Assembly (NCBI GenBank): GCA_943736015.1
Contig: OX031063.1
Span: 3,577,001 to 3,641,000 of the forward strand
Source: Tridacna crocea
Taxonomy: Eukaryota; Mollusca; Bivalvia; Cardiida; Cardiidae
Direction: 5' to 3'
Length of the DNA stretch: 64,000 nt
Shown here: in pieces, positions 227-64,000 of the stretch
Layout of the letters: each line of letters opens with the position of its first letter
How positions within the stretch are numbered: position 1 is the stretch's first letter
Translations under genes and position numbers: made by a program
Notes under the pieces: generated by a model
Seen by the model: the letters and a program-made list of their open reading frames with translations, nothing else
Told to the model about the DNA's origin: nothing
The model's database searches: none

Positions 227-236
227 CACAGAAGCT

Positions 237-466: not shown

Positions 467-479
467 GGAAATCAGCATG

Positions 480-830: not shown

Positions 831-836
831 AATAAA
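831..836 (+). terminator. AATAAA, possible polyadenylation signal
   Basis: A canonical hexamer lies about 210 bp downstream of the TATA-like box, with T/C-rich sequence after it. In AT-rich DNA this is expected by chance fairly often. Confidence 0.2.
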
Positions 837-1075: not shown

Positions 1076-1789
1076 TTACGTCGACTGCCGTATCATACGT
1101 GCCAGTTACGCACATGCCAAAACACCAGGAAATAATGTGACAAGTGGCTAAAAAAAGACTGAAGACTCTTTCAGTAGCAACTGCTTCCTGTTGCATAAGT
1201 CAAACAAAGAGAACTAAATTTCTAATATATTTTTTCTCTCCAATCTCTTTATACTGTGACGACATATACCCATTTACGTAGACTACCGTCTCTCGTAGGT
1301 GCCACTTACGTATCCTCGAAAACATGAAAAATTGACCTACGGAACATTTCCTAGCAGACGACACATGTTTCTTAAGTCAAATATAGGGAACTAAATTTCT
1401 GATTTTTTTTTTCTCCATTGTCTTTATACCATGACAACAAACCCATTTATGTTGACTACCGTCTCATAGGTGCCAGTTACGTATCCGCGAAAACATGAAA
1501 AATGGACTTTTGGAACATTTTGTAGCAGACGACACCTGTCGTTTAAGTCAATCATAGGGATTTTTCTTTTTCGTTTTCTCTCACTAGGGCCATCGATTTG
1601 GTTACGATGACTATCTCACCCATACGTGATGGTTACGTGCTACGCATAAAATCGTAAAATCAACTTAGACACTTTCGGAGGCAACTGAAACCTGTTGCAC
1701 AAATCAAAAAAAAAGGTAAACCGAATGCTTCCCTGTTTTCTTACCAGGGTCAATTTTGGTGACCTTGCGAGTCAAAAGTCAATGTTATG
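1076..1789 (+). promoter_or_regulatory. Paired TTACG motifs in the subrepeats
   Basis: TTACG or its one-base variant TTATG occurs in pairs 30-32 bp apart: 1076/1106, 1274/1306, 1447/1477 and 1602/1633, with a last single TTATG at 1785. Several read TTACGTA, the core of PAR/C/EBP-type bZIP sites. The pairing follows from the subrepeat structure, but the core is better kept than the bases around it. Confidence 0.3.
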
Positions 1790-1821
1790 TTTAACTGCTG
1801 CGCAAAAATATAAAATTCAGA

Positions 1822-1835
1822 AGCAACCGGTTGCT
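1822..1835. repeat. 14-bp perfect palindrome AGCAACCGGTTGCT
   Basis: A gap-free palindrome in the last subrepeat. I found it unchanged in the units I checked. It may be a protein-binding dyad or chance. Confidence 0.6.
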
Positions 1836-1855
1836 GTTGCGGAAACTTTTTCCGG

Positions 1856-2051
1856 TTAAAAAAAATCTTGAACTAGTTTGAAGAATTTAAAAATAGGCCA
1901 TAAAGATACAATAAGATGTAAGAATAACTAGTAATCATTTTTGTCTTTGATAGGATTGAAAACATTGTGGGAAAAGGAGAAAATGCTGGTAACCTGCATT
2001 GTCTCCTTTTCTCAGATTTTTTTCAAAAGCTTTCTCTTTCGGGGGTGTTAA
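1856..2051. mobile_element. Decayed, inverted relative of the MITE across the unit 1/2 junction
   Basis: From GGTTAA (1856) to GTGTTAA (ending 2051) the sequence follows the reverse complement of the intact MITE. TAATCATTTTTGTC and TTTGATAGG correspond to the reverse complement of the MITE segment CCTATCATAGACAGAAATTA. The 32-bp hairpin arm is repeated exactly at 1958-1989, and TTTTCAAAAG matches the other flank of the hairpin. The second arm (TGCATTGTCTCC and onward) and both ends have diverged or lost bases. It repeats at every unit junction; in unit 1 the right part is 1-126. Confidence 0.6.
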
Positions 2052-40399: not shown

Positions 40400-42323
40400 A
40401 ACTAGTAATCATTTTTGTCTTTGATAGGATTGAAAACATTGTGGGAAAAGGAGAAAATGCTGGTAACCTGCATTGTCTCCTTTTCTCAGATTTTTTTCAA
40501 AAGCTTTCTCTTTCGGGGATGTTAAAAGGCGTCATTGTGTGGTAAAAGGTTAACAAGTATAAACAGAACCCCCCCCCCTTTACCAATCAGCCAATCAAAT
40601 CCTATCCCTCTGTGAAATTATCCAATCACAGAAGCTTTAACCCTTTCCCAAACAAGCCCTGGTTTTTAAGGGTCTGGAATAGTAGCCTTTTGAAAACATT
40701 GTGGGAAAAGGAGAAAATGCTGGCTAACCAGCATTTTCTCCTTTTCCCACAATGTTTTCTAGCCTATCATAGACAGAAATTATCTTTTCAGCAAGAGTTG
40801 AATTGTCGTCTGCAAATGCTTCCAATTTAGTCTAGTCCAAAAGTTTGTCGTTTGGGAAAGGGTTAAGGAAATCAGCATGGGGCCCAGTCAGCCAATCAGA
40901 GGCTTCGAGAAATTCAAAACTGGGCCCAGTCAGCCAATCAGAGGCTTCGAGATATTCAAAGTTGGGCCCAGTCAGCCAATCAGAGAGCTTGAAAATTACT
41001 TCAAAATGGCGCCCTAATACATAGATAGAAAACAGTGAACAAAAAACGGCATAAAAGTGGATTTACAGTCTTCTTTGAAGGCTGCTGTGCAGTCCTAGGC
41101 AAACTGCTAGGCATGCACCACCCACACATGCCAGATTTCACTGAAAAAGGGCCAAAATTTAAGAAATCAGGGTGGCAGAAGACCTTGTTTTGGTCTGTTC
41201 AAGCGCCCTTGCAAGAGTTACTTCCCTTGAAATAAACCCTTGATGCCCCTTTATCCCTTAATTAGATTTCCTGACTCAGACCACATTAAATTCTGCGCAT
41301 TGAATAAGCCAAAATGATCAATGTACAGTGTAAAAACCCCAGAAATTAATGTGACAAGTGGCTAAAAAAGGACTGAATACTCTTTCAGTAGCAATTGATT
41401 CCCATTGCACGAATCAAACAAAGGGAATTGAAGTGTAATTTTTCTAATCTCTTCAAACCGCAACAAGAAACCCAGTTACGTCGACTGCCGTTTCATACGT
41501 GCCAGTTACGCACATGCCAAAACACCAGGAAATAATGTGACAAGTGGCTAAAAAAAGACTGAAGACTCTTTCAGTAGCAACTGCTTCCTGTTGCATAAGT
41601 CAAACAAAGAGAACTAAATTTCTAATATATTTTTTCTCTCCAATCTCTTTATACTGTGACGACATATACCCATTTACGTAGACTACCGTCTCTCGTAGGT
41701 GCCACTTACGTATCCTCGAAAACATGAAAAATTGACCTACGGAACATTTCCTAGCAGACGACACATGTTTCTTAAGTCAAATATAGGGAACTAAATTTCT
41801 GATTTTTTTTTTCTCCATTGTCTTTATACCATGACAACAAACCCATTTACGTTGACTACCGTCTCATAGGTGCCAGTTACGTATCCGCGAAAACATGAAA
41901 AATGGACTTTTGGAACATTTTGTAGCAGACGACACCTGTCGTTTAAGTCAATCATAGGGATTTTTCTTTTTCGTTTTCTCTCACTAGGGCCATCGATTTG
42001 GTTACGATGACTATCTCACCCATACGTGATGGTTACGTGCTACGCATAAAATCGTAAAATCAACTTAGACACTTTCGGAGGCAACTGAAACCTGTTGCAC
42101 AAATCAAAGAAAGGTAAACCGAATGCTTCCCTGTTTTCTTACCAGGGTCAATTTTGGTGACCTTGCGAGTCAAAAGTCAATGTTATGTTTAACTGCTGCG
42201 CAAAAATATAAAATTCAGAAGCAACCGGTTGCTGTTGCGGAAACTTTTTCCGGTTAAAAAAAATCTTGAACTAGTTTGAAGAATTTAAAAATAGGCCATA
42301 AAGATACAATAAGATGTAAGAAT
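40400..42323 (+). repeat. Satellite unit 22 (1,924 bp)
   Basis: The MITE is at 40637-40866 with 10 C. It has GGGGATG near 40516 and a private AATACATAG near 41016 that disrupts the TATATAG motif. Confidence 0.98.
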
Positions 42324-44245
42324 AACTAGTAATCATTTTTGTCTTTGATAGGATTGAAAACATTGTGGGAAAAGGAGAAAATGCTGGTAACCTGCATTGT
42401 CTCCTTTTCTCAGATTTTTTTCAAAAGCTTTCTCTTTCGGGGATGTTAAAAGGCGTCATTGTGTGGTAAAAGGTTAACAAGTATAAACAGAACCCCCCCC
42501 TTTACCAATCAGCCAATCAAATCCTATCCCTCTGTGAAATTATCCAATCACAGAAGCTTTAACCCTTTCCCAAACAAGCCCTGGTTTTTAAGGGTCTGGA
42601 ATAGTAGCCTTTTGAAAACATTGTGGGAAAAGGAGAAAATGCTGGCTAACCAGCATTTTCTCCTTTTCCCACAATGTTTTCTAGCCTATCATAGACAGAA
42701 ATTATCTTTTCAGCAAGAGTTGAATTGTCGTCTGCAAATGCTTCCAATTTAGTCTAGTCCAAAAGTTTGTCGTTTGGGAAAGGGTTAAGGAAATCAGCAT
42801 GGGGCCCAGTCAGCCAATCAGAGGCTTCGAGAAATTCAAAACTGGGCCCAGTCAGCCAATCAGAGGCTTCGAGATATTCAAAGTTGGGCCCAGTCAGCCA
42901 ATCAGAGAGCTTGAAAATTACTTCAAAATGGCGCCCTAATATATAGATAGAAAACAGTGAACAAAAAACGGCATAAAAGTGGATTTACAGTCTTCTTTGA
43001 AGGCTGCTGTGCAGTCCTAGGCAAACTGCTAGGCATGCACCACCCACACATGCCAGATTTCACTGAAAAAGGGCCAAAATTTAAGAAATCAGGGTGGCAG
43101 AAGACCTTGTTTTGGTCTGTTCAAGCGCCCTTGCAAGAGTTACTTCCCTTGAAATAAACCCTTGATGCCCCTTTATCCCTTAATTAGATTTCCTGACTCA
43201 GACCACATTAAATTCTGCGCATTGAATAAGCCAAAATGATCAATGTACAGTGTAAAAACCCCAGAAATTAATGTGACAAGTGGCTAAAAAAGGACTGAAT
43301 ACTCTTTCAGTAGCAATTGATTCCCATTGCACGAATCAAACAAAGGGAATTGAAGTGTAATTTTTCTAATCTCTTCAAACCGCAACAAGAAACCCAGTTA
43401 CGTCGACTGCCGTTTCATACGTGCCAGTTATGCACATGCCAAAACACCAGGAAATAATGTGACAAGTGGCTAAAAAAAGACTGAAGACTCTTTCAGTAGC
43501 AACTGCTTCCTGTTGCATAAGTCAAACAAAGAGAACTAAATTTCTAATATATTTTTTCTCTCCAATCTCTTTATACTGTGACGACATATACCCATTTACG
43601 TAGACTACCGTCTCTCGTAGGTGCCACTTACGTATCCTCGAAAACATGAAAAATTGACCTACGGAACATTTCCTAGCAGACGACACATGTTTCTTAAGTC
43701 AAATATAGGGAACTAAATTTCTGATTTTTTTTTTCTCCATTGTCTTTATACCATGACAACAAACCCATTTACGTTGACTACCGTCTCATAGGTGCCAGTT
43801 ACGTATCCGCGAAAACATGAAAAATGGACTTTTGGAACATTTTGTAGCAGACGACACCTGTCGTTTAAGTCAATCATAGGGATTTTTCTTTTTCGTTTTC
43901 TCTCACTAGGGCCATCGATTTGGTTACGATGACTATCTCACCCATACGTGATGGTTACGTGCTACGCATAAAATCGTAAAATCAACTTAGACACTTTCGG
44001 AGGCAACTGAAACCTGTTGCACAAATCAAAGAAAGGTAAACCGAATGCTTCCCTGTTTTCTTACCAGGGTCAATTTTGGTGACCTTGCGAGTCAAAAGTC
44101 AATGTTATGTTTAACTGCTGCGCAAAAATATAAAATTCAGAAGCAACCGGTTGCTGTTGCGGAAACTTTTTCCGGTTAAAAAAAATCTTGAACTAGTTTG
44201 AAGAATTTAAAAATAGGCCATAAAGATACAATAAGATGTAAGAAT
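42324..44245 (+). repeat. Satellite unit 23 (1,922 bp)
   Basis: The MITE is at 42559-42788 with 8 C. GGGGATG (42440) and TTATGCAC (43429) match unit 28, five units on. It lacks the TTTAGAAAAC and AAAAGAGG changes of unit 28, so the five-unit duplication may begin inside this unit. Confidence 0.98.
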
Positions 44246-46167
44246 AACTAGTAATCATTTTTGTCTTTGATAGGATTGAAAACATTGTGGGAAAAGGAGA
44301 AAATGCTGGTAACCTGCATTGTCTCCTTTTCTCAGATTTTTTTCAAAAGCTTTCTCTTTCGGGGGTGTTAAAAGGCGTCATTGTGTGGTAAAAGGTTAAC
44401 AAGTATAAACAGAACCCCCCCCTTTACCAATCAGCCAATCAAATCCTATCCCTCTGTAAAATTATCCAATCACAGAAGCTTTAACCCTTTCCCAAACAAG
44501 CCCTGGTTTTTAAGGGTCTGGAATAGTAGCCTTTTGAAAACATTGTGGGAAAAGGAGAAAATGCTGGCTAACCAGCATTTTCTCCTTTTCCCACAATGTT
44601 TTCTAGCCTATCATAGACAGAAATTATCTTTTCAGCAAGAGTTGAATTGTCGTCTGCAAATGCTTCCAATTTAGTCTAGTCCAAAAGTTTGTCGTTTGGG
44701 AAAGGGTTAAGGAAATCAGCATGGGGCCCAGTCAGCCAATCAGAGGCTTCGAGATATTCAAAACTGGGCCCAGTCAGCCAATCAGAGGCTTCGAGATATT
44801 CAAAGTTGGGCCCAGTCAGCCAATCAGAGAGCTTGAAAATTACTTGAAAATGGCGCCCTAATATATAGATAGAAAACAGTGAACAAAAAACGGCATAAAA
44901 GTGGATTTACAGTCTTCTTTGAAGGCTGCTGTGCAGTCCTAGGCGAACTGCTAGGCATGCACCACCCACACATGCCAGATTTCACTGAAAAAGGGCCAAA
45001 ATTTAAGAAATCAGGGTGGCAGAAGACCTTGTTTTGGTCTGTTCAAGCGCCCTTGCAAGAGTTACTTCCCTTGAAATAAACCCTTGATGCCCCTTTATCC
45101 CTTAATTAGATTTCCTGACTCAGACCACATTAAATTCTGCGCATTGAATAAGCCAAAATGATCAATGTACAGTGTAAAAACCCCAGAAATTAATGTGACA
45201 AGTGGCTAAAAAAGGACTGAATACTCTTTCAGTAGCAATTGATTCCCATTGCACGAATCAAACAAAGGGAATTGAAGTGTAATTTTTCTAATCTCTTCAA
45301 ACCGCAACAAGAAACCCAGTTACGTCGACTGCCGTTTCATACGTGCCAGTTACGCACATGCCAAAACACCAGGAAATAATGTGACAAGTGGCTAAAAAAA
45401 GACTGAAGACTCTTTCAGTAGCAACTGCTTCCTGTTGCATAAGTCAAACAAAGAGAACTAAATTTCTAATATATTTTTTCTCTCCAATCTCTTTATACTG
45501 TGACGACATATACCCATTTACGTAGACTACCGTCTCTCGTAGGTGCCACTTACGTATCCTCGAAAACATGAAAAATTGACCTACGGAACATTTCCTAGCA
45601 GACGACACATGTTTCTTAAGTCAAATATAGGGAACTAAATTTCTGATTTTTTTTTTCTCCATTGTCTTTATACCATGACAACAAACCCATTTACGTTGAC
45701 TAGCATCTCATAGGTGCCAGTTACGTATCCGCGAAAACATGAAAAATGGACTTTTGAAACATTTTGTAGCAGACGACACCTGTCGTTTAAGTCAATCATA
45801 GGGATTTTTCTTTTTCGTTTTCTCTCACTAGGGCCATCGATTTGGTTACGATGACTATCTCACCCATACGTGATGGTTACGTGCTACGCATAAAATCGTA
45901 AAATCAACTTAGACACTTTCGGAGGCAACTGAAACCTGTTGCACAAATCAAAGAAAGGTAAACCGAATGCTTCCCTGTTTTCTTACCAGGGTCAATTTTG
46001 GTGACCTTGTGAGTCAAAAGTCAATGTTATGTTTAACTGCTGCGCAAAAATATAAAATTCAGAAGCAACCGGTTGCTGTTGCGGAAACTTTTTCCGGTTA
46101 AAAAAAATCTTGAACTAGTTTGAAGAATTTAAAAATAGGCCATAAAGATACAATAAGATGTAAGAAT
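44246..46167 (+). repeat. Satellite unit 24 (1,922 bp), higher-order position A, copy 1
   Basis: The MITE is at 44481-44710. Markers shared only with unit 29 include CTGTAAAATT (44455), GATATTC in the first 42-bp repeat (44752), CTTGAAAATGG (44844) and TTTTGAAACATT. It also has GCGAACTGC, CTAGCATCTC and TTGTGAGTC. Confidence 0.98.
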
Positions 46168-48089
46168 AACTAGTAATCATTTTTGTCTTTGATAGGATTG
46201 AAAACATTGTGGGAAAAGGAGAAAATGCTGGTAACCTGCATTGTCTCCTTTTCTCAGATTATTTTCAAAAGCTTTCTCTTTCGGGGGTGTTAAAAGGCGT
46301 CATTGTGTGGTAAAAGGTTAACAAATATAAACACAACCCCCCCCTTTACCAATCAGCCAATCAAATCCTATCCCTCTGTGAAATTATCCAATCACAGAAG
46401 CTTTAACCCTTTCCCAAACAAGCCCTGGTTTTTAAGGGTCTGGAATAGTAGCCTTTTGAAAACATTGTGGGAAAAGGAGAAAATGCTGGCTAACCAGCAT
46501 TTTCTCCTTTTCCCACAATGTTTTCTAGCCTATCATAGACAGAAATTATCTTTTCAGCAAGAGTTGAATTGTCGACTGCAAATGCTTCCAATTTAGTCTA
46601 GTCCAAAAGTTTGTCGTTTGGGAAAGGGTTAAGGAAATCAGCATGGGGCCCAGTCAGCCAATCAGAGGCTTCGAGAAATTCAAAACTGGGCCCAGTCAGC
46701 CAATCAGAGGCTTCGAGATATTCAAAGTTGGGCCCAGTCAGCCAATCAGAGAGCTTGAAAATTACTTCAAAATGGCGCCCTAATATATAGATAGAAAACA
46801 GTGAACAAAAAACGGCATAAAAGTGGATTTACAGTCTTCTTTGAAGGCTGCTGTGCAGTCCTAGGCAAACTGCTAGGCATGCACCACCCACACATGCCAG
46901 ATTTCACTGAAAAAGGGCCAAAATTTAAGAAATCAGGGTGGCAGAAGACCTTGTTTTGGTCTGTTCAAGCGCCCTTGCAAGAGTTACTTCCCTTGAAATA
47001 AACCCTTGATGCCCCTTTATCCCTTAATTAGATTTCCTGACTCAGACCACATTAAATTCTGCGCATTGAATAAGCCAAAATGATCAATGTACAGTGTAAA
47101 AACCCCAGAAATTAATGTGACAAGTGGCTAAAAAAGGACTGAATACTCTTTCAGTAGCAATTGATTCCCATTGCATGAATCAAACAAAGGGAATTGAAGT
47201 GTAATTTTTCTAATCTCTTCAAACCGCAACAAGAAACCCAGTTACGTCGACTGCCGTTTCATACGTGCCAGTTATGCACATGCCAAAACACCAGGAAATA
47301 ATGTGACAAGTGGCTAAAAAAAGACTGAAGACTCTTTCAGTAGCAACTGCTTCCTGTTGCATAAGTCAAACAAAGAGAACTAAATTTCTAATATATTTTT
47401 TCTCTCCAATCTCTTTATACTGTGACGACATATACCCATTTACGTAGACTACCGTCTCTCGTAGGTGCCACTTACGTATCCTCGAAAACATGAAAAATTG
47501 ACCTACGGAACATTTCCTAGCAGACGACACATGTTTCTTAAGTCAAATATAGGGAACTAAATTTCTGATTTTTTTTTTCTCCATTGTCTTTATACCATGA
47601 CAACAAACCCATTTACGTTGACTAGTATCTCATAGGTGCCAGTTACGTATCCGCGAAAACATGAAAAATGGACTTTTGGAACATTTTGTAGCAGACGACA
47701 CCTGTCGTTTAAGTCAATCATAGGGATTTTTCTTTTTCGTTTTCTCTCACTAGGGCCATCGATTTGGTTACGATGACTATCTCACCCATACGTGATGGTT
47801 ACGTGCTACGCATAAAATCGTAAAATCAACTTAGACACTTTCGGAGGCAACTGAAACCTGTTGCACAAATCAAAGAAAGGTAAACCGAATGCTTCCCTGT
47901 TTTCTTACCAGGGTCAATTTTGGTGACCTTGCGAGTCAAAAGTCAATGTTATGTTTAACTGCTGCGCAAAAATATAAAATTCAGAAGCAACCGGTTGCTG
48001 TTGCGGAAACTTTTTCCGGTTAAAAAAAATCTTGAACTAGTTTGAAGAATTTAAAAATAGGCCATAAAGATACAATAAGATGTAAGAAT
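46168..48089 (+). repeat. Satellite unit 25 (1,922 bp), higher-order position B, copy 1
   Basis: The MITE is at 46403-46632. Markers are GATTATTTTC, AAATATAAACACAAC (46324), TTGTCGACTGC (46570), which makes an extra GTCGAC site, ATGAATC, TTATGCAC and CTAGTATCTC (47622). Confidence 0.98.
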
Positions 48090-50010
48090 AACTAGTAATC
48101 ATTTTTGTCTTTGATAGGATTGAAAACATTGTGGGAAAAGGAGAAAATGCTGGTAACCTGCATTGTCTCCTTTTCTCAGATTTTTTTCAAAAGCTTTCTC
48201 TTTCGGGGGTGTTAAAAGGCGTCATTGTGTGGTAAAAGGTTAACAAATATAAACAGAACCCCCCCCTTTACCAATCAGCCAATCAAATCCTATCCCTCTG
48301 TGAAATTATCCAATCACAGAAGCTTTAACCCTTTCCCAAACAAGCCCTGGTTTTTAAGGGTCTGGAATAGTAGCCTTTTGAAAACATTGTGGGAAAAGGA
48401 GAAAATGCTGGCTAACCAGCATTTTCTCCTTTTCCCACAATGTTTTCTAGCCTATCATAGACAGAAATTATCTTTTCAGCAAGAGTTGAATTGTCGTCTG
48501 CAAATGCTTCCAATTTAGTCTAGTCCAAAAGTTTGTCGTTTGGGAAAGGGTTAAGGAAATCAGCATGGGGCCCAGTCAGCCAATCAGAGGCTTCGAGAAA
48601 TTCAAAACTGGGCCCAGTCAGCCAATCAGAGGCTTCGAGATATTCAAAGTTGGGCCCAGTCAGCCAATCAGAGAGCTTGAAAATTACTTCAAAATGGCGC
48701 CCTAATATATAGATAGAAAACAGTGAACAAAAAACGGCATAAAAGTGGATTTACAGTCTTCTTTGAAGGCTGCTGTGCAGTCCTAGGCAAACTGCTAGGC
48801 ATGCACCACCCACACATGCCAGATTTCACTGAAAAAGGGCCAAAATTTAAGAAATCAGGGTGGCAGAAGACCTTGTTTTGGTCTGTTCAAGCGCCCTTGC
48901 AAGAGTTACTTCCCTTGAAATAAACCCTTGATGCCCCTTTATCCCTTAATTAGATTTCCTGACTCAGACCACATTAAATTCTGCGCATTGAATAAGCCAA
49001 AATGATCAATGTACAGTGTAAAAACCCCAGAAATTAATGTGACAAGTGGCTAAAAAAGGACTGAATACTCTTTCAGTAGCAATTGATTCCCATTGCATGA
49101 ATCAAACAAAGGGAATTGAAGTGTAATTTTTCTAATCTCTTCAAACCGCAACAAGAAACCCAGTTACGTCGACTGCCGTTTCATACGTGCCAGTTATGCA
49201 CATGCCAAAACACCAGGAAATAATGTGACAAGTGGCTAAAAAAAGACTGAAGACTCTTTCAGTAGCAACTGCTTCCTGTTGCATAAGTCAAACAAAGAGA
49301 ACTAAATTTCTAATATATTTTTTCTCTCCAATCTCTTTATACTGTGACGACATATACCCATTTACGTAGACTACCGTCTCTCGTAGGTGCCACTTACTTA
49401 TCCTCGAAAACATGAAAAATTGACCTACGGAACATTTCCTAGCAGACGACACATGTTTCTTAAGTCAAATATAGGGAACTAAATTTCTGATTTTTTTTTC
49501 TCCATTGTCTTTATACCATGACAACAAACCCATTTACGTTGACTAGCATCTCATAGGTGCCAGTTACGTATCCGCGAAAACATGAAAAATGGACTTTTGG
49601 AACATTTTGTAGCAGACGACACCTGTCGTTTAAGTCAATCATAGGGATTTTTCTTTTTCATTTTCTCTCACTAGGGCCATCGATTTGGTTACGATGACTA
49701 TCTCACCCATACGTGATGGTTACATGCTACGCATAAAATCGTAAAATCAACTTAGACACTTTCGGAGGCAACTGAAACCTGTTGCACAAATCAAAGAAAG
49801 GTAAACCGAATGCTTCCCTGTTTTCTTACCAGGGTCAATTTTGGTGACCTTGCGAGTCAAAAGTCAATGTTATGTTTAACTGCTGCGCAAAAATATAAAA
49901 TTCAGAAGCAACCGGTTGCTGTTGCGGAAACTTTTTCCGGTTAAAAAAAATCTTGAACTAGTTTGAAGAATTTAAAAATAGGCCATAAAGATACAATAAG
50001 ATGTAAGAAT
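48090..50010 (+). repeat. Satellite unit 26 (1,921 bp), higher-order position C, copy 1
   Basis: The MITE is at 48325-48554. Markers are AAATATAAAC, CTTACTTATCC (49393), CTAGCATCTC, TTCATTTTC (49658) and TTACATGC (49721). Confidence 0.98.
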
Positions 50011-51932
50011 AACTAGTAATCATTTTTGTCTTTGATAGGATTGAAAACATTGTGGGAAAAGGAGAAAATGCTGGTAACCTGCATTGTCTCCTTTTCTCAG
50101 ATTTTTTTCAAAAGCTTTCTCTTTCGGGGGTGTTAAAAGGCGTCATTGTGTGGTAAAAGGTTAACAAATATAAACAGAACCCCCCCCTTTACCAATCAGC
50201 CAATCAAATCCTATCCCTCTGTGAAATTATCCAATCACAGAAGCTTTAACCCTTTCCCAAACAAGCCCTGGTTTTTAAGGGTCTGGAATAGTAGCCTTTT
50301 GAAAACATTGTGGGAAAAGGAGAAAATGCTGGCTAACCAGCATTTTCTCCTTTTCCCACAATGTTTTCTAGCCTATCATAGACAGAAATTATCTTTTCAG
50401 CAAGAGTTGAATTGTCGTCTGCAAATGCTTCCAATTTAGTCTAGTCCAAAAGTTTGTCGTTTGGGAAAGGGTTAAGGAAATCAGCATGGGGCCCAGTCAG
50501 CCAATCAGAGGCTTCGAGAAATTCAAAACTGGGCCCAGTCAGCCAATCAGAGGCTTCGAGATATTCAAAGTTGGGCCCAGTCAGCCAATCAGAGAGCTTG
50601 AAAATTACTTCAAAATGGCGCCCTAATATATAGATAGAAAACAGTGAACAAAAAACGGCATAAAAGTGGATTTACAGTCTTCTTTGAAGGCTGCTGTGCA
50701 GTCCTAGGCAAACTGCTAGGCATGCACCACCCACACATGCCAGATTTCACTGAAAAAGGGCCAAAATTTAAGAAATCAGGGTGGCAGAAGACCTTGTTTT
50801 GGTCTGTTCAAGCGCCCTTGCAAGAGTTACTTCCCTTGAAATAAACCCTTGATGCCCCTTTATCCCTTAATTAGATTTCCTGACTCAGACCACATTAAAT
50901 TCTGCGCATTGAATAAGCCAAAATGATCAATGTACAGTGTAAAAACCCCAGAAATTAATGTGACAAGTGGCTAAAAAAGGACTGAATACTCTTTCAGTAG
51001 CAATTGATTCCCATTGCATGAATCAAACAAAGGGAATTGAAGTGTAATTTTTCTAATCTCTTCAAACCGCAACAAGAAACCCAGTTACGTCGACTGCCGT
51101 TTCATACGTGCCAGTTATGCACATGCCAAAACACCAGGAAATAATGTGACAAGTGGCTAAAAAAAGACTGAAGACTCTTTCAGTAGCAACTGCTTCCTGT
51201 TGCATAAGTCAAACAAAGAGAACTAAATTTCTAATATATTTTTTCTCTCCAATCTCTTTATACTGTGACGACATATACCCATTTACGTAGACTACCGTCT
51301 CTCGTAGGTGCCACTTACGTATCCTCGAAAACATGAAAAATTGACCTACGGAACATTTCCTAGCAGACGACACATGTTTCTTAAGTCAAATATAGGGAAC
51401 TAAATTTCTGATTCTTTTTTTCTCCATTGTCTTTATACCATGACAACAAACCAATTTACGTTGACTACCGTCTCATAGGTGCCAGTTACGTATCCGCGAA
51501 AACATGAAAAATGGACTTTTGGAACATTTTGTAGCAGACGACACCTGTCGTTTAAGTCAATCATAGGGATTTTTCTTTTTCGTTTTCTCTCACTAGGGCC
51601 ATCGATTTGGTTACGATGACTATCTCACCCATACGTGATGGTTACGTGCTACGCATAAAATCGTAAAATCAACTTAGACACTTTCGGAGGCAACTGAAAC
51701 CTGTTGCACAAATCAAAGAAAGGTAAACCGAATGCTTCCCTGTTTTCTTACCAGGGTCAATTTTGGTGACCTTGCGAGTCAAAAGTCAATGTTATGTTTA
51801 ACTGCTGCGCAAAAATATAAAATTCAGAAGCAACCGGTTGCTGTTGCGGAAACTTTTTCCGGTTAAAAAAAATCTTGAACTAGTTTGAAGAATTTAAAAA
51901 TAGGCCATAAAGATACAATAAGATGTAAGAAT
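50011..51932 (+). repeat. Satellite unit 27 (1,922 bp), higher-order position D, copy 1
   Basis: The MITE is at 50246-50475. Markers are AAATATAAAC, ATGAATC, TTATGCAC, a C interrupting the T-tract (51414) and AACCAATTTACG (51449). Confidence 0.98.
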
Positions 51933-53854
51933 AACTAGTAATCATTTTTGTCTTTGATAGGATTGAAAACATTGTGGGAAAAGGAGAAAATGCTGGTAAC
52001 CTGCATTGTCTCCTTTTCTCAGATTTTTTTCAAAAGCTTTCTCTTTCGGGGATGTTAAAAGGCGTCATTGTGTGGTAAAAGGTTAACAAGTATAAACAGA
52101 ACCCCCCCCTTTACCAATCAGCCAATCAAATCCTATCCCTCTGTGAAATTATCCAATCACAGAAGCTTTAACCCTTTCCCAAACAAGCCCTGGTTTTTAA
52201 GGGTCTGGAATAGTAGCCTTTAGAAAACATTGTGGGAAAAGGAGAAAATGCTGGCTAACCAGCATTTTCTCCTTTTCCCACAATGTTTTCTAGCCTATCA
52301 TAGACAGAAATTATCTTTTCAGCAAGAGTTGAATTGTCGTCTGCAAATGCTTCCAATTTAGTCTAGTCCAAAAGTTTGTCGTTTGGGAAAGGGTTAAGGA
52401 AATCAGCATGGGGCCCAGTCAGCCAATCAGAGGCTTCGAGAAATTCAAAACTGGGCCCAGTCAGCCAATCAGAGGCTTCGAGATATTCAAAGTTGGGCCC
52501 AGTCAGCCAATCAGAGAGCTTGAAAATTACTTCAAAATGGCGCCCTAATATATAGATAGAAAACAGTGAACAAAAAACGGCATAAAAGAGGATTTACAGT
52601 CTTCTTTGAAGGCTGCTGTGCAGTCCTAGGCAAACTGCTAGGCATGCACCACCCACACATGCCAGATTTCACTGAAAAAGGGCCAAAATTTAAGAAATCA
52701 GGGTGGCAGAAGACCTTGTTTTGGTCTGTTCAAGCGCCCTTGCAAGAGTTACTTCCCTTGAAATAAACCCTTGATGCCCCTTTATCCCTTAATTAGATTT
52801 CCTGACTCAGACCACATTAAATTCTGCGCATTGAATAAGCCAAAATGATCAATGTACAGTGTAAAAACCCCAGAAATTAATGTGACAAGTGGCTAAAAAA
52901 GGACTGAATACTCTTTCAGTAGCAATTGATTCCCATTGCACGAATCAAACAAAGGGAATTGAAGTGTAATTTTTCTAATCTCTTCAAACCGCAACAAGAA
53001 ACCCAGTTACGTCGACTGCCGTTTCATACGTGCCAGTTATGCACATGCCAAAACACCAGGAAATAATGTGACAAGTGGCTAAAAAAAGACTGAAGACTCT
53101 TTCAGTAGCAACTGCTTCCTGTTGCATAAGTCAAACAAAGAGAACTAAATTTCTAATATATTTTTTCTCTCCAATCTCTTTATACTGTGACGACATATAC
53201 CCATTTACGTAGACTACCGTCTCTCGTAGGTGCCACTTACGTATCCTCGAAAACATGAAAAATTGACCTACGGAACATTTCCTAGCAGACGACACATGTT
53301 TCTTAAGTCAAATATAGGGAACTAAATTTCTGATTTTTTTTTTCTCCATTGTCTTTATACCATGACAACAAACCCATTTACGTTGACTACCGTCTCATAG
53401 GTGCCAGTTACGTATCCGCGAAAACATGAAAAATGGACTTTTGGAACATTTTGTAGCAGACGACACCTGTCGTTTAAGTCAATCATAGGGATTTTTCTTT
53501 TTCGTTTTCTCTCACTAGGGCCATCGATTTGGTTACGATGACTATCTCACCCATACGTGATGGTTACGTGCTACGCATAAAATCGTAAAATCAACTTAGA
53601 CACTTTCGGAGGCAACTGAAACCTGTTGCACAAATCAAAGAAAGGTAAACCGAATGCTTCCCTGTTTTCTTACCAGGGTCAATTTTGGTGACCTTGCGAG
53701 TCAAAAGTCAATGTTATGTTTAACTGCTGCGCAAAAATATAAAATTCAGAAGCAACCGGTTGCTGTTGCGGAAACTTTTTCCGGTTAAAAAAAATCTTGA
53801 ACTAGTTTGAAGAATTTAAAAATAGGCCATAAAGATACAATAAGATGTAAGAAT
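51933..53854 (+). repeat. Satellite unit 28 (1,922 bp), higher-order position E, copy 1
   Basis: The MITE is at 52168-52397. Markers are GGGGATG, TTTAGAAAAC (52219), which lengthens the hairpin arms, and AAAAGAGG (52584). It keeps ACGAATC (C at 52941) and has TTATGCAC (T at 53040). Confidence 0.98.
52221..52292. repeat. Extended hairpin of unit 28 (34-bp arms)
   Basis: The change TTTTGAAAAC to TTTAGAAAAC adds an A-T and a T-A pair outside the 32-bp arms, giving TAGAAAAC paired with GTTTTCTA. Units 33 and 34 share it. The effect is a longer perfect stem than in the other units. Confidence 0.85.
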
Positions 53855-55776
53855 AACTAGTAATCATTTTTGTCTTTGATAGGATTGAAAACATTGTGGG
53901 AAAAGGAGAAAATGCTGGTAACCTGCATTGTCTCCTTTTCTCAGATTTTTTTCAAAAGCTTTCTCTTTCGGGGGTGTTAAAAGGCGTCATTGTGTGGTAA
54001 AAGGTTAACAAGTATAAACAGAACCCCCCCCTTTACCAATCAGCCAATCAAATCCTATCCCTCTGTAAAATTATCCAATCACAGAAGCTTTAACCCTTTC
54101 CCAAACAAGCCCTGGTTTTTAAGGGTCTGGAATAGTAGCCTTTTGAAAACATTGTGGGAAAAGGAGAAAATGCTGGCTAACCAGCATTTTCTCCTTTTCC
54201 CACAATGTTTTCTAGCCTATCATAGACAGAAATTATCTTTTCAGCAAGAGTTGAATTGTCGTCTGCAAATGCTTCCAATTTAGTCTAGTCCAAAAGTTTG
54301 TCGTTTGGGAAAGGGTTAAGGAAATCAGCATGGGGCCCAGTCAGCCAATCAGAGGCTTCGAGATATTCAAAACTGGGCCCAGTCAGCCAATCAGAGGCTT
54401 CGAGATATTCAAAGTTGGGCCCAGTCAGCCAATCAGAGAGCTTGAAAATTACTTGAAAATGGCGCCCTAATATATAGATAGAAAACAGTGAACAAAAAAC
54501 GGCATAAAAGTGGATTTACAGTCTTCTTTGAAGGCTGCTGTGCAGTCCTAGGCGAACTGCTAGGCATGCACCACCCACACATGCCAGATTTCACTGAAAA
54601 AGGGCCAAAATTTAAGAAATCAGGGTGGCAGAAGACCTTGTTTTGGTCTGTTCAAGCGCCCTTGCAAGAGTTACTTCCCTTGAAATAAACCCTTGATGCC
54701 CCTTTATCCCTTAATTAGATTTCCTGACTCAGACCACATTAAATTCTGCGCATTGAATAAGCCAAAATGATCAATGTACAGTGTAAAAACCCCAGAAATT
54801 AATGTGACAAGTGGCTAAAAAAGGACTGAATACTCTTTCAGTAGCAATTGATTCCCATTGCATGAATCAAACAAAGGGAATTGAAGTGTAATTTTTCTAA
54901 TCTCTTCAAACCGCAACAAGAAACCCAGTTACGTCGACTGCCGTTTCATACGTGCCAGTTACGCACATGCCAAAACACCAGGAAATAATGTGACAAGTGG
55001 CTAAAAAAAGACTGAAGACTCTTTCAGTAGCAACTGCTTCCTGTTGCATAAGTCAAACAAAGAGAACTAAATTTCTAATATATTTTTTCTCTCCAATCTC
55101 TTTATACTGTGACGACATATACCCATTTACGTAGACTACCGTCTCTCGTAGGTGCCACTTACGTATCCTCGAAAACATGAAAAATTGACCTACGGAACAT
55201 TTCCTAGCAGACGACACATGTTTCTTAAGTCAAATATAGGGAACTAAATTTCTGATTTTTTTTTTCTCCATTGTCTTTATACCATGACAACAAACCCATT
55301 TACGTTGACTAGCATCTCATAGGTGCCAGTTACGTATCCGCGAAAACATGAAAAATGGACTTTTGAAACATTTTGTAGCAGACGACACCTGTCGTTTAAG
55401 TCAATCATAGGGATTTTTCTTTTTCGTTTTCTCTCACTAGGGCCATCGATTTGGTTACGATGACTATCTCACCCATACGTGATGGTTACGTGCTACGCAT
55501 AAAATCGTAAAATCAACTTAGACACTTTCGGAGGCAACTGAAACCTGTTGCACAAATCAAAGAAAGGTAAACCGAATGCTTCCCTGTTTTCTTACCAGGG
55601 TCAATTTTGGTGACCTTGTGAGTCAAAAGTCAATGTTATGTTTAACTGCTGCGCAAAAATATAAAATTCAGAAGCAACCGGTTGCTGTTGCGGAAACTTT
55701 TTCCGGTTAAAAAAAATCTTGAACTAGTTTGAAGAATTTAAAAATAGGCCATAAAGATACAATAAGATGTAAGAAT
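53855..55776 (+). repeat. Satellite unit 29 (1,922 bp), higher-order position A, copy 2
   Basis: The MITE is at 54090-54319. It matches unit 24 base for base by eye except T at 54863 (ATGAATC), where unit 24 has C at 45254. Confidence 0.98.
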
Positions 55777-57698
55777 AACTAGTAATCATTTTTGTCTTTG
55801 ATAGGATTGAAAACATTGTGGGAAAAGGAGAAAATGCTGGTAACCTGCATTGTCTCCTTTTCTCAGATTATTTTCAAAAGCTTTCTCTTTCGGGGGTGTT
55901 AAAAGGCGTCATTGTGTGGTAAAAGGTTAACAAATATAAACACAACCCCCCCCTTTACCAATCAGCCAATCAAATCCTATCCCTCTGTGAAATTATCCAA
56001 TCACAGAAGCTTTAACCCTTTCCCAAACAAGCCCTGGTTTTTAAGGGTCTGGAATAGTAGCCTTTTGAAAACATTGTGGGAAAAGGAGAAAATGCTGGCT
56101 AACCAGCATTTTCTCCTTTTCCCACAATGTTTTCTAGCCTATCATAGACAGAAATTATCTTTTCAGCAAGAGTTGAATTGTCGACTGCAAATGCTTCCAA
56201 TTTAGTCTAGTCCAAAAGTTTGTCGTTTGGGAAAGGGTTAAGGAAATCAGCATGGGGCCCAGTCAGCCAATCAGAGGCTTCGAGAAATTCAAAACTGGGC
56301 CCAGTCAGCCAATCAGAGGCTTCGAGATATTCAAAGTTGGGCCCAGTCAGCCAATCAGAGAGCTTGAAAATTACTTCAAAATGGCGCCCTAATATATAGA
56401 TAGAAAACAGTGAACAAAAAACGGCATAAAAGTGGATTTACAGTCTTCTTTGAAGGCTGCTGTGCAGTCCTAGGCAAACTGCTAGGCATGCACCACCCAC
56501 ACATGCCAGATTTCACTGAAAAAGGGCCAAAATTTAAGAAATCAGGGTGGCAGAAGACCTTGTTTTGGTCTGTTCAAGCGCCCTTGCAAGAGTTACTTCC
56601 CTTGAAATAAACCCTTGATGCCCCTTTATCCCTTAATTAGATTTCCTGACTCAGACCACATTAAATTCTGCGCATTGAATAAGCCAAAATGATCAATGTA
56701 CAGTGTAAAAACCCCAGAAATTAATGTGACAAGTGGCTAAAAAAGGACTGAATACTCTTTCAGTAGCAATTGATTCCCATTGCATGAATCAAACAAAGGG
56801 AATTGAAGTGTAATTTTTCTAATCTCTTCAAACCGCAACAAGAAACCCAGTTACGTCGACTGCCGTTTCATACGTGCCAGTTATGCACATGCCAAAACAC
56901 CAGGAAATAATGTGACAAGTGGCTAAAAAAAGACTGAAGACTCTTTCAGTAGCAACTGCTTCCTGTTGCATAAGTCAAACAAAGAGAACTAAATTTCTAA
57001 TATATTTTTTCTCTCCAATCTCTTTATACTGTGACGACATATACCCATTTACGTAGACTACCGTCTCTCGTAGGTGCCACTTACGTATCCTCGAAAACAT
57101 GAAAAATTGACCTACGGAACATTTCCTAGCAGACGACACATGTTTCTTAAGTCAAATATAGGGAACTAAATTTCTGATTTTTTTTTTCTCCATTGTCTTT
57201 ATACCATGACAACAAACCCATTTACGTTGACTAGTATCTCATAGGTGCCAGTTACGTATCCGCGAAAACATGAAAAATGGACTTTTGGAACATTTTGTAG
57301 CAGACGACACCTGTCGTTTAAGTCAATCATAGGGATTTTTCTTTTTCGTTTTCTCTCACTAGGGCCATCGTTTTGGTTACGATGACTATCTCACCCATAC
57401 GTGATGGTTACGTGCTACGCATAAAATCGTAAAATCAACTTAGACACTTTCGGAGGCAACTGAAACCTGTTGCACAAATCAAAGAAAGGTAAACCGAATG
57501 CTTCCCTGTTTTCTTACCAGGGTCAATTTTGGTGACCTTGCGAGTCAAAAGTCAATGTTATGTTTAACTGCTGCGCAAAAATATAAAATTCAGAAGCAAC
57601 CGGTTGCTGTTGCGGAAACTTTTTCCGGTTAAAAAAAATCTTGAACTAGTTTGAAGAATTTAAAAATAGGCCATAAAGATACAATAAGATGTAAGAAT
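55777..57698 (+). repeat. Satellite unit 30 (1,922 bp), higher-order position B, copy 2
   Basis: The MITE is at 56012-56241. It matches unit 25 except T at 57371 (CATCGTTTTGG), where unit 25 has A at 47762. Confidence 0.98.
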
Positions 57699-59619
57699 AA
57701 CTAGTAATCATTTTTGTCTTTGATAGGATTGAAAACATTGTGGGAAAAGGAGAAAATGCTGGTAACCTGCATTGTCTCCTTTTCTCAGATTTTTTTCAAA
57801 AGCTTTCTCTTTCGGGGGTGTTAAAAGGCGTCATTGTGTGGTAAAAGGTTAACAAATATAAACAGAACCCCCCCCTTTACCAATCAGCCAATCAAATCCT
57901 ATCCCTCTGTGAAATTATCCAATCACAGAAGCTTTAACCCTTTCCCAAACAAGCCCTGGTTTTTAAGGGTCTGGAATAGTAGCCTTTTGAAAACATTGTG
58001 GGAAAAGGAGAAAATGCTGGCTAACCAGCATTTTCTCCTTTTCCCACAATGTTTTCTAGCCTATCATAGACAGAAATTATCTTTTCAGCAAGAGTTGAAT
58101 TGTCGTCTGCAAATGCTTCCAATTTAGTCTAGTCCAAAAGTTTGTCGTTTGGGAAAGGGTTAAGGAAATCAGCATGGGGCCCAGTCAGCCAATCAGAGGC
58201 TTCGAGAAATTCAAAACTGGGCCCAGTCAGCCAATCAGAGGCTTCGAGATATTCAAAGTTGGGCCCAGTCAGCCAATCAGAGAGCTTGAAAATTACTTCA
58301 AAATGGCGCCCTAATATATAGATAGAAAACAGTGAACAAAAAACGGCATAAAAGTGGATTTACAGTCTTCTTTGAAGGCTGCTGTGCAGTCCTAGGCAAA
58401 CTGCTAGGCATGCACCACCCACACATGCCAGATTTCACTGAAAAAGGGCCAAAATTTAAGAAATCAGGGTGGCAGAAGACCTTGTTTTGGTCTGTTCAAG
58501 CGCCCTTGCAAGAGTTACTTCCCTTGAAATAAACCCTTGATGCCCCTTTATCCCTTAATTAGATTTCCTGACTCAGACCACATTAAATTCTGCGCATTGA
58601 ATAAGCCAAAATGATCAATGTACAGTGTAAAAACCCCAGAAATTAATGTGACAAGTGGCTAAAAAAGGACTGAATACTCTTTCAGTAGCAATTGATTCCC
58701 ATTGCATGAATCAAACAAAGGGAATTGAAGTGTAATTTTTCTAATCTCTTCAAACCGCAACAAGAAACCCAGTTACGTCGACTGCCGTTTCATACGTGCC
58801 AGTTATGCACATGCCAAAACACCAGGAAATAATGTGACAAGTGGCTAAAAAAAGACTGAAGACTCTTTCAGTAGCAACTGCTTCCTGTTGCATAAGTCAA
58901 ACAAAGAGAACTAAATTTCTAATATATTTTTTCTCTCCAATCTCTTTATACTGTGACGACATATACCCATTTACGTAGACTACCGTCTCTCGTAGGTGCC
59001 ACTTACTTATCCTCGAAAACATGAAAAATTGACCTACGGAACATTTCCTAGCAGACGACACATGTTTCTTAAGTCAAATATAGGGAACTAAATTTCTGAT
59101 TTTTTTTTCTCCATTGTCTTTATACCATGACAACAAACCCATTTACGTTGACTAGCATCTCATAGGTGCCAGTTACGTATCCGCGAAAACATGAAAAATG
59201 GACTTTTGGAACATTTTGTAGCAGACGACACCTGTCGTTTAAGTCAATCATAGGGATTTTTCTTTTTCATTTTCTCTCACTAGGGCCATCGATTTGGTTA
59301 CGATGACTATCTCACCCATACGTGATGGTTACATGCTACGCATAAAATCGTAAAATCAACTTAGACACTTTCGGAGGCAACTGAAACCTGTTGCACAAAT
59401 CAAAGAAAGGTAAACCGAATGCTTCCCTGTTTTCTTACCAGGGTCAATTTTGGTGACCTTGCGAGTCAAAAGTCAATGTTATGTTTAACTGCTGCGCAAA
59501 AATATAAAATTCAGAAGCAACCGGTTGCTGTTGCGGAAACTTTTTCCGGTTAAAAAAAATCTTGAACTAGTTTGAAGAATTTAAAAATAGGCCATAAAGA
59601 TACAATAAGATGTAAGAAT
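57699..59619 (+). repeat. Satellite unit 31 (1,921 bp), higher-order position C, copy 2
   Basis: The MITE is at 57934-58163. I found no difference from unit 26; it repeats CTTACTTATCC, TTCATTTTC and TTACATGC. Confidence 0.98.
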
Positions 59620-61541
59620 AACTAGTAATCATTTTTGTCTTTGATAGGATTGAAAACATTGTGGGAAAAGGAGAAAATGCTGGTAACCTGCATTGTCTCC
59701 TTTTCTCAGATTTTTTTCAAAAGCTTTCTCTTTCGGGGGTGTTAAAAGGCGTCATTGTGTGGTAAAAGGTTAACAAATATAAACAGAACCCCCCCCTTTA
59801 CCAATCAGCCAATCAAATCCTATCCCTCTGTGAAATTATCCAATCACAGAAGCTTTAACCCTTTCCCAAACAAGCCCTGGTTTTTAAGGGTCTGGAATAG
59901 TAGCCTTTTGAAAACATTGTGGGAAAAGGAGAAAATGCTGGCTAACCAGCATTTTCTCCTTTTCCCACAATGTTTTCTAGCCTATCATAGACAGAAATTA
60001 TCTTTTCAGCAAGAGTTGAATTGTCGTCTGCAAATGCTTCCAATTTAGTCTAGTCCAAAAGTTTGTCGTTTGGGAAAGGGTTAAGGAAATCAGCATGGGG
60101 CCCAGTCAGCCAATCAGAGGCTTCGAGAAATTCAAAACTGGGCCCAGTCAGCCAATCAGAGGCTTCGAGATATTCAAAGTTGGGCCCAGTCAGCCAATCA
60201 GAGAGCTTGAAAATTACTTCAAAATGGCGCCCTAATATATAGATAGAAAACAGTGAACAAAAAACGGCATAAAAGTGGATTTACAGTCTTCTTTGAAGGC
60301 TGCTGTGCAGTCCTAGGCAAACTGCTAGGCATGCACCACCCACACATGCCAGATTTCACTGAAAAAGGGCCAAAATTTAAGAAATCAGGGTGGCAGAAGA
60401 CCTTGTTTTGGTCTGTTCAAGCGCCCTTGCAAGAGTTACTTCCCTTGAAATAAACCCTTGATGCCCCTTTATCCCTTAATTAGATTTCCTGACTCAGACC
60501 ACATTAAATTCTGCGCATTGAATAAGCCAAAATGATCAATGTACAGTGTAAAAACCCCAGAAATTAATGTGACAAGTGGCTAAAAAAGGACTGAATACTC
60601 TTTCAGTAGCAATTGATTCCCATTGCATGAATCAAACAAAGGGAATTGAAGTGTAATTTTTCTAATCTCTTCAAACCGCAACAAGAAACCCAGTTACGTC
60701 GACTGCCGTTTCATACGTGCCAGTTATGCACATGCCAAAACACCAGGAAATAATGTGACAAGTGGCTAAAAAAAGACTGAAGACTCTTTCAGTAGCAACT
60801 GCTTCCTGTTGCATAAGTCAAACAAAGAGAACTAAATTTCTAATATATTTTTTCTCTCCAATCTCTTTATACTGTGACGACATATACCCATTTACGTAGA
60901 CTACCGTCTCTCGTAGGTGCCACTTACGTATCCTCGAAAACATGAAAAATTGACCTACGGAACATTTCCTAGCAGACGACACATGTTTCTTAAGTCAAAT
61001 ATAGGGAACTAAATTTCTGATTCTTTTTTTCTCCATTGTCTTTATACCATGACAACAAACCAATTTACGTTGACTACCGTCTCATAGGTGCCAGTTACGT
61101 ATCCGCGAAAACATGAAAAATGGACTTTTGGAACATTTTGTAGCAGACGACACCTGTCGTTTAAGTCAATCATAGGGATTTTTCTTTTTCGTTTTCTCTC
61201 ACTAGGGCCATCGATTTGGTTACGATGACTATCTCACCCATACGTGATGGTTACGTGCTACGCATAAAATCGTAAAATCAACTTAGACACTTTCGGAGGC
61301 AACTGAAACCTGTTGCACAAATCAAAGAAAGGTAAACCGAATGCTTCCCTGTTTTCTTACCAGGGTCAATTTTGGTGACCTTGCGAGTCAAAAGTCAATG
61401 TTATGTTTAACTGCTGCGCAAAAATATAAAATTCAGAAGCAACCGGTTGCTGTTGCGGAAACTTTTTCCGGTTAAAAAAAATCTTGAACTAGTTTGAAGA
61501 ATTTAAAAATAGGCCATAAAGATACAATAAGATGTAAGAAT
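59620..61541 (+). repeat. Satellite unit 32 (1,922 bp), higher-order position D, copy 2
   Basis: The MITE is at 59855-60084. I found no difference from unit 27, including the interrupted T-tract and AACCAATTTACG. Confidence 0.98.
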
Positions 61542-63463
61542 AACTAGTAATCATTTTTGTCTTTGATAGGATTGAAAACATTGTGGGAAAAGGAGAAAAT
61601 GCTGGTAACCTGCATTGTCTCCTTTTCTCAGATTTTTTTCAAAAGCTTTCTCTTTCGGGGATGTTAAAAGGCGTCATTGTGTGGTAAAAGGTTAACAAGT
61701 ATAAACAGAACCCCCCCCTTTACCAATCAGCCAATCAAATCCTATCCCTCTGTGAAATTATCCAATCACAGAAGCTTTAACCCTTTCCCAAACAAGCCCT
61801 GGTTTTTAAGGGTCTGGAATAGTAGCCTTTAGAAAACATTGTGGGAAAAGGAGAAAATGCTGGCTAACCAGCATTTTCTCCTTTTCCCACAATGTTTTCT
61901 AGCCTATCATAGACAGAAATTATCTTTTCAGCAAGAGTTGAATTGTCGTCTGCAAATGCTTCCAATTTAGTCTAGTCCAAAAGTTTGTCGTTTGGGAAAG
62001 GGTTAAGGAAATCAGCATGGGGCCCAGTCAGCCAATCAGAGGCTTCGAGAAATTCAAAACTGGGCCCAGTCAGCCAATCAGAGGCTTCGAGATATTCAAA
62101 GTTGGGCCCAGTCAGCCAATCAGAGAGCTTGAAAATTACTTCAAAATGGCGCCCTAATATATAGATAGAAAACAGTGAACAAAAAACGGCATAAAAGAGG
62201 ATTTACAGTCTTCTTTGAAGGCTGCTGTGCAGTCCTAGGCAAACTGCTAGGCATGCACCACCCACACATGCCAGATTTCACTGAAAAAGGGCCAAAATTT
62301 AAGAAATCAGGGTGGCAGAAGACCTTGTTTTGGTCTGTTCAAGCGCCCTTGCAAGAGTTACTTCCCTTGAAATAAACCCTTGATGCCCCTTTATCCCTTA
62401 ATTAGATTTCCTGACTCAGACCACATTAAATTCTGCGCATTGAATAAGCCAAAATGATCAATGTACAGTGTAAAAACCCCAGAAATTAATGTGACAAGTG
62501 GCTAAAAAAGGACTGAATACTCTTTCAGTAGCAATTGATTCCCATTGCATGAATCAAACAAAGGGAATTGAAGTGTAATTTTTCTAATCTCTTCAAACCG
62601 CAACAAGAAACCCAGTTACGTCGACTGCCGTTTCATACGTGCCAGTTACGCACATGCCAAAACACCAGGAAATAATGTGACAAGTGGCTAAAAAAAGACT
62701 GAAGACTCTTTCAGTAGCAACTGCTTCCTGTTGCATAAGTCAAACAAAGAGAACTAAATTTCTAATATATTTTTTCTCTCCAATCTCTTTATACTGTGAC
62801 GACATATACCCATTTACGTAGACTACCGTCTCTCGTAGGTGCCACTTACGTATCCTCGAAAACATGAAAAATTGACCTACGGAACATTTCCTAGCAGACG
62901 ACACATGTTTCTTAAGTCAAATATAGGGAACTAAATTTCTGATTTTTTTTTTCTCCATTGTCTTTATACCATGACAACAAACCCATTTACGTTGACTACC
63001 GTCTCATAGGTGCCAGTTACGTATCCGCGAAAACATGAAAAATGGACTTTTGGAACATTTTGTAGCAGACGACACCTGTCGTTTAAGTCAATCATAGGGA
63101 TTTTTCTTTTTCGTTTTCTCTCACTAGGGCCATCGATTTGGTTACGATGACTATCTCACCCATACGTGATGGTTACGTGCTACGCATAAAATCGTAAAAT
63201 CAACTTAGACACTTTCGGAGGCAACTGAAACCTGTTGCACAAATCAAAGAAAGGTAAACCGAATGCTTCCCTGTTTTCTTACCAGGGTCAATTTTGGTGA
63301 CCTTGCGAGTCAAAAGTCAATGTTATGTTTAACTGCTGCGCAAAAATATAAAATTCAGAAGCAACCGGTTGCTGTTGCGGAAACTTTTTCCGGTTAAAAA
63401 AAATCTTGAACTAGTTTGAAGAATTTAAAAATAGGCCATAAAGATACAATAAGATGTAAGAAT
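61542..63463 (+). repeat. Satellite unit 33 (1,922 bp), higher-order position E, copy 2
   Basis: The MITE is at 61777-62006. It matches unit 28 except T at 62550 (ATGAATC) and C at 62649 (TTACGCAC). GGGGATG, TTTAGAAAAC and AAAAGAGG are all present. Confidence 0.98.
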
Positions 63464-64000
63464 AACTAGTAATCATTTTTGTCTTTGATAGGATTGAAAA
63501 CATTGTGGGAAAAGGAGAAAATGCTGGTAACCTGCATTGTCTCCTTTTCTCAGATTTTTTTCAAAAGCTTTCTCTTTCGGGGGTGTTAAAAGGCGTCATT
63601 GTGTGGTAAAAGGTTAACAAGTATAAACAGAACCCCCCCCTTTACCAATCAGCCAATCAAATCCTATCCCTCTGTGAAATTATCCAATCACAGAAGCTTT
63701 AACCCTTTCCCAAACAAGCCCTGGTTTTTAAGGGTCTGGAATAGTAGCCTTTAGAAAACATTGTGGGAAAAGGAGAAAATGCTGGCTAACCAGCATTTTC
63801 TCCTTTTCCCACAATGTTTTCTAGCCTATCATAGACAGAAATTATCTTTTCAGCAAGAGTTGAATTGTCGTCTGCAAATGCTTCCAATTTAGTCTAGTCC
63901 AAAAGTTTGTCGTTTGGGAAAGGGTTAAGGAAATCAGCATGGGGCCCAGTCAGCCAATCAGAGGCTTCGAGAAATTCAAAACTGGGCCCAGTCAGCCAAT
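63464..64000 (+). repeat. Satellite unit 34, partial (537 bp, cut by the window end)
   Basis: The MITE is at 63699-63928 and the window ends inside the 42-bp repeats. It has TTTAGAAAAC like units 28 and 33 but GGGGGTG rather than GGGGATG, and lacks the position-A marker CTGTAAAATT. The five-unit pattern therefore does not simply continue. Confidence 0.97.

Follow-up and report, generated by a model that had tools for sequence, protein, structure and literature searches.

The human macrosatellites D4Z4, DXZ4 and NBL2 have monomers of 3.3, 3 and 1.4 kb (in the excerpted part of PMC8122249), and the name has been applied to monomers over 500 bp, possibly composite (excerpt of PMC12692304). In the higher-order repeats of alpha satellite, monomers are about 70% alike within a block and the blocks are 97–100% alike (PMC8122249, same excerpt). 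Satellite arrays of Populus, built from the short monomers Palv156 and Palv148, have higher-order repeats both inside and outside centromeres (excerpt of PMC12046899), and the unequal-crossover model (Smith 1976, as described in the excerpt of PMC8122249) holds that out-of-register exchange yields periodic arrays without selection. Here we describe a 64,000-bp stretch of Tridacna crocea DNA (the window; contig OX031063.1, hereafter C8, positions 3,577,001–3,641,000; assembly GCA_943736015.1, 1,048,827,098 bases or 1.05 Gb), which lies in an array of 1.92-kb monomers and in which five successive monomers recur as a block. Our reading is that a block of five monomers (9,609 bp) was probably duplicated once in tandem, recently and by unequal exchange.

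A five-unit block in a 1.92-kb satellite array

The array fills the window, and its monomers exceed the 500 bp above which the term macrosatellite is used.

1..64000, + strand: macrosatellite array; 33 full monomers of 1,920–1,926 bp, plus 537 bp of unit 34

We also analysed 100 kb on each side of the window; the joined 264 kb holds 124 unit starts and no N. Its leftmost full-monomer match is at C8:3,481,530 (the stretch analysed starts at 3,477,001), and to the right the array reaches at least C8:3,838,335, mostly at monomer spacing, among the matches listed for an abundant monomer 35-mer. Near that end, two places of this 35-mer (C8:3,830,388 and 3,830,645) lie 257 bp apart and break the monomer rhythm. 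Any two of the 33 full units differ at a maximum of 17 positions in ~1,922, with a mean of 9.7. Within units 1–8 no two differ by more than 5, and unit 1 is identical to unit 4. Alignment column 1452 has T in units 1–8 (1–15398) and C in units 9–33; in the joined stretch this switch falls between units g57 and g58 and forms a sharp border of two array parts.

A preliminary description of the window had proposed that units 24–28 recur as units 29–33 with only four differences, and that adjacent units differ more than that.

44246..53854, + strand: first block copy, units 24–28 in the frame of the preliminary description (self-comparison at lag 9,609, unit distances)
53855..63463, + strand: second block copy, units 29–33 in the same frame (same evidence)

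Both proposals were confirmed. Self-comparison at a lag of 9,609 shows exactly four differences within 44246–53854, at 45254/54863, 47762/57371, 52941/62550 and 53040/62649, and the unit pairs 24/29, 25/30, 26/31, 27/32 and 28/33 differ by 1, 1, 0, 0 and 2. Neighbours in units 24–28, by comparison, differ by 13, 8, 8 and 7. It is this difference between its own monomers that distinguishes the block from the near-identical units 1–8. When unit order was shuffled, none of 5,000 shuffles gave a best five-unit lagged match of 4 (minimum 6, mean 26.4). With four differences in 9,609 bases and no shuffle as good, very recent duplication of a multi-unit block remains the best reading. Units 23–27 and 28–32 reach the same total of 4 differences, so the unit frame of the block is not unique. 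The repeat and its near identity are direct observations, as are the number of marker places in the assembly and the other tandem block matches described below.

Of the five marker strings said to be private to a unit pair, four are confined to their pair within the window and the fifth, TTTAGAAAAC, is also present in unit 34. One private 35-mer surrounds an extra GTCGAC, and its 2 exact places in the assembly, C8:3,623,555 and C8:3,633,164, are both inside the window.

46571..46576, + strand: extra GTCGAC of unit 25 (second site in that unit); the surrounding exact 35-mer is found here and at 56180 only, in the whole assembly
56180..56185, + strand: extra GTCGAC of unit 30 (second site in that unit); same private 35-mer

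A SalI digest had been expected to show these sites as a 9.6-kb pattern. This is not to be expected, since the remaining 31 of the 33 full units carry one GTCGAC each; complete cutting in silico divides the window into two end pieces, 30 fragments of ~1.92 kb and two each of 1,247 and 675 bp. SalI cleavage is moreover blocked by CpG methylation, which the CpG pattern of the array suggests. Among commercial enzymes in the Biopython list with 2–8 window sites, only FokI, BtsCI, BstF5I and BseGI have sites spaced by 9,609; they share the one specificity GGATG and have 6 window sites each.

The repeat had also been called a higher-order repeat. The term holds for a multi-unit block copied as a unit: several distinct monomers are repeated together, and the blocks are more alike than the monomers inside them (4 differences per five-unit block vs a mean of 10.4 per monomer pair within the block). 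It does not hold in the strict alpha-satellite sense, given a monomer identity of ~99.5% where clearly diverged monomers would be about 70% identical (PMC8122249, excerpt), two copies of the block, as counted by its private exact 35-mer in the assembly, and other block sizes nearby. We did observe traces of a five-unit pattern upstream.

34627..44245, + strand: older, weaker echo of the five-unit pattern, units 19–23; G at alignment column 1461 in units 19–21, 24–26 and 29–31 only

Column 1463 has A in these same nine units and also in unit 16. Together the two columns represent an older five-unit rhythm, from before the last copying, and this shared base type is what would be expected of an established five-unit higher-order repeat forming a longer array, as in alpha satellite. 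By overall distance, however, the older rhythm is weak. Units 19–23 differ from units 24–28 by 9, 11, 9, 8 and 2, on average no closer than neighbours, and the mean distance among units 16–28 is 7.4 at lag 5, 7.6 at lag 1, 7.0 at lag 10 and 8.7–11.0 at lags 2–4 and 6–9. On the downstream side, unit 34 carries the unit-28/33 allele at column 293 and none of the unit-24/29 markers, so the five-unit pattern stops there. Since, in addition, the private 35-mer has two places in the assembly and blocks of other sizes lie nearby in the same array, we regard a long five-unit higher-order array as extremely improbable.

Borders of the block and other events in the array

The preliminary description had the periodicity begin at unit 24. 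The match at lag 9,609 actually spans 40571 to the window end, with seven mismatches left of the block (41020, 41410, 41509, 41805, 41844, 42613 and 42980), three right of 53854 (54067, 54144 and 54364) and many more beyond the reach of the window. At 52941 and 53040, unit 28 has the same alleles as unit 23, unlike unit 33, and these two differences probably predate the copying. If units 23 and 28 crossed over upstream of the two sites, both differences would be older, and 45254 and 47762 would remain as post-copying differences. Judged from these alleles, the block appears better framed ~1.3 to 0.9 kb further left than in the earlier frame.

42981..43332, no strand: putative start zone of the first copy, in unit 23 at positions ~658–1009; placed by parsimony from the end of the lag-9,609 mismatches at 42980 and the unit-23 alleles in unit 28
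52590..52941, no strand: putative junction zone between the copies, the matching part of unit 28

At an assumed rate of 1e-8 per site per generation, the two post-copying differences, spread over 2 x 9,609 bases, would put the age at ~10,000 generations.

In the mechanism that we propose, sister chromatids or homologues would pair five units out of register and recombine between units 23 and 28, with monomer positions 658–1009 as the likeliest place, and the outcome would be two block copies in tandem and in frame. Homologous exchange predicts a junction at which neither unit length nor frame changes, as is observed, and a crossover upstream of 52941 and 53040 predicts the unit-23 alleles that unit 28 carries at both sites.

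We observed several further block matches in the same array. These include exact matches of 8,121 bp at a lag of 7,690 and of 30,273 bp at a lag of 25,737. The second of these starts ~30 kb past the window, extends with its copy over C8:3,670,709–3,726,718 and is longer than common reads. Tandem blocks of 2, 3 and 4 units show on average no more than 1 difference per unit between copies. A dimer-like pattern is seen as a marker spaced by 3,845–3,846 bp at 8 successive places in C8:3,648,473–3,675,389, with 17 places overall. The five-unit event is thus one of several block events of different sizes (2, 3, 4 and 8 units besides 5), and the comparable tandem matches (lags 7,690 and 25,737, and the dimer marker) support block duplication. 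Further along, in C8:3,768,942–3,807,307, 1,904-bp units are spaced at 7,672, 7,672, 9,598 and 11,519 bp among the matches listed, which is another block rhythm.

The match at lag 25,737 contains an inserted element. Units g105 and g113 (C8:3,682,765 and 3,708,502) are each 12,278 bp long and identical, and both hold an insertion of ~10.35 kb with identical 974-bp terminal repeats at the same monomer site.

C8:3,684,044–3,694,396 (approximate), domains in minus-strand frames: long terminal repeat (LTR) retrotransposon within a satellite monomer, with a copy 25,737 bp further on

Pfam comparison of three pieces of the element's two minus-strand frames gave, in order, a PNMA-like Gag domain, a zinc knuckle, reverse transcriptase, RNase H and an integrase zinc-binding domain, an order by which we take the element to be of the Ty3/Gypsy type. 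The left insertion junction has 2 places in the assembly. The simple reading is a single insertion that was later duplicated with its surroundings in a 25.7-kb tandem duplication, and this duplication supports block duplication as a process in this array.

We also sought a common exchange hotspot and did not find one: the five-unit zone (monomer 658–1009) and the four-unit zone (monomer 1404–1835) do not overlap, and the junction zone of the eight-unit event spans more than two monomers and is uninformative on the exchange position. These zones also bear on a replication-based route, in which the block would have been amplified by break-induced replication with template switching or by re-insertion of a rolling-circle product. 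Such a route would likewise give a tandem copy in register, and the strong hairpin of the monomer could stall replication. However, the junction has neither filler sequence nor a change in unit length, and both the five-unit and the four-unit zone lie away from the hairpin (~291–358). We infer exchange rather than such a process, which we consider quite unlikely.

Less remote, if still rather doubtful, is an assembly artefact, in which the same block was walked twice or two array haplotypes were joined end to end (one locus or two alleles). The copies are near identical and lie in the type of region where assemblers err, and the long exact tandem match beyond the window in the same array also fits an artefact. 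On the other hand, the copies differ at four sites, at one of which (47762/57371) a base found in 1 of the 33 units is involved. These differences are not decisive, as a few sites could also distinguish two alleles that had been joined end to end. Exact stretches between the copies reach 5,178 bp at most, so that typical long reads would have met differences and reads above this length could separate the copies. The older five-unit echo upstream likewise argues against an artefact, and we presume the assembly to be correct here.

Unequal exchange between units 23 and 28 has points against it as well. It was placed by means of two CpG sites (alignment columns 1012 and 1111), which are variable in 9 and 10 of the 33 units, and gene conversion or recurrent mutation could imitate the allele pattern concerned. 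The very perfection of the 30.3-kb exact match downstream may mean that the assembly of the array is unreliable, which would weaken the support drawn from that match. We find it an evenly balanced judgement that block duplication on a kilobase monomer is still going on and can be read off this array, with 2-, 3-, 4-, 5- and 8-unit blocks of different apparent ages, one of them with a young LTR retrotransposon, and with a CpG-transition bias suggesting germ-line methylation.

Monomer contents and relatives of the satellite

Each monomer contains a miniature inverted-repeat transposable element (MITE) with its hairpin, a minisatellite and internal subrepeats, given here for unit 24.

44485..44706, no strand: piggyBac-like MITE, 222 bp; 13-bp terminal inverted repeats CCCTTTCCCAAAC, TTAA on both sides
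44536..44603, no strand: hairpin within the MITE, a perfect inverted repeat of 32 bp around a 4-nt loop; 32 of the 33 full units have it exactly
44724..44834, + strand: 42-bp minisatellite, three copies of AGCCAATCAG; three per unit in all 33 full units
45177..45957, + strand: degenerate internal subrepeats of ~171–186 bp (internal comparison)

Both MITE ends are exact in 32 of the 33 full units, the right end being altered in unit 17. The element has the short terminal inverted repeats and TTAA flanks of a MITE, and from its TTAA and CCC ends we presume that it belongs to a piggyBac-like family. A clean empty site with one TTAA was not found: the monomer of the related satellite on contig C6 lacks the MITE together with sequence on both its sides. 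The folding z-score of 44481–44710, around the MITE hairpin, is -10.6. The AGCCAATCAG copies of the minisatellite are NF-Y-type sites. No gene was found in unit 24: of the stop-to-stop frames of 50 aa or more that overlap it (9 in all), the longest has 100 aa.

CpG transitions account for 18 of the 56 variable substitution columns in the window, where 92 of the 1,922 consensus bases lie in CpG (Fisher p = 5e-15), and for 31 of 123 columns over 123 units (p = 1e-21); both p-values are a guide only, as a column was counted as CpG if any unit had CpG, the base count came from the consensus and the units share ancestry. The likely cause of this bias is germ-line CpG methylation.

The monomer of the C6 subfamily (C6:9,472,501–9,476,000, minus strand) is 1,581 bp long and ~91% identical; it lacks the MITE and has fewer minisatellite copies. 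The C6 junction is not a clean empty site, and the difference may reflect either a gain of the stretch on C8 or a loss on C6. A monomer 58-mer has 174 forward exact matches in the assembly, of which the 100 listed are all on C8. A 94-mer has 165 forward matches, a 76-mer 326 forward and 10 reverse, and the abundant 35-mer 1,122 forward and 1,645 reverse. Among the matches listed, C8 is represented for the 58-, 94-, 76- and 35-mer, C6 for the 35- and 76-mer, and C2 for the 35-mer. Outside this genome, two patterns sought in viral contigs gave 0 matches each, one pattern in genome contigs gave 0, and blastn of one monomer (unit 24) against phages and plasmids gave none. There was no Rfam match at gathering scores. 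Six DNA strings sought in paper texts gave no match, and we do not claim that the satellite is unpublished. Elsewhere in the assembly, a COX1 match with three inner TGA codons lies at C31:26,516–27,850, on a contig of at least 27,850 bases; this contig is perhaps mitochondrial, and would then be large for an animal.

Comparison with known satellite systems

If the duplication is as we propose, a long-monomer satellite would be seen here in the course of block-wise turnover, with markers that allow the exchange to be placed by parsimony within ~350 bp. Ordinary long reads should follow such events more easily in a satellite whose kilobase monomers have phased private markers than in one with short monomers. 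Provided that the assembly is right, relatives and populations could be used to measure block sizes and exchange points directly.

By size alone, the array resembles the human macrosatellites D4Z4, DXZ4 and NBL2 in having kilobase tandem monomers. With alpha-satellite higher-order repeats it shares multi-monomer blocks that are copied as a unit and are more alike between copies than within. It differs from them in its ~99.5% identity within the block, 99.96% between blocks, and two copies. The core motif of CENP-B has no match with one mismatch or fewer, and with two mismatches 1 forward and 3 reverse matches. The Populus arrays are alike in holding near-identical multi-monomer blocks in one array, but their monomers are short and the one described here is 1.92 kb. 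Block duplications would follow from the unequal-crossover model, from which we found no departure in this array. In conclusion, the probable block duplication described here is ordinary satellite-DNA turnover, on a monomer of 1.92 kb, and it leaves the known picture of satellite evolution unchanged.

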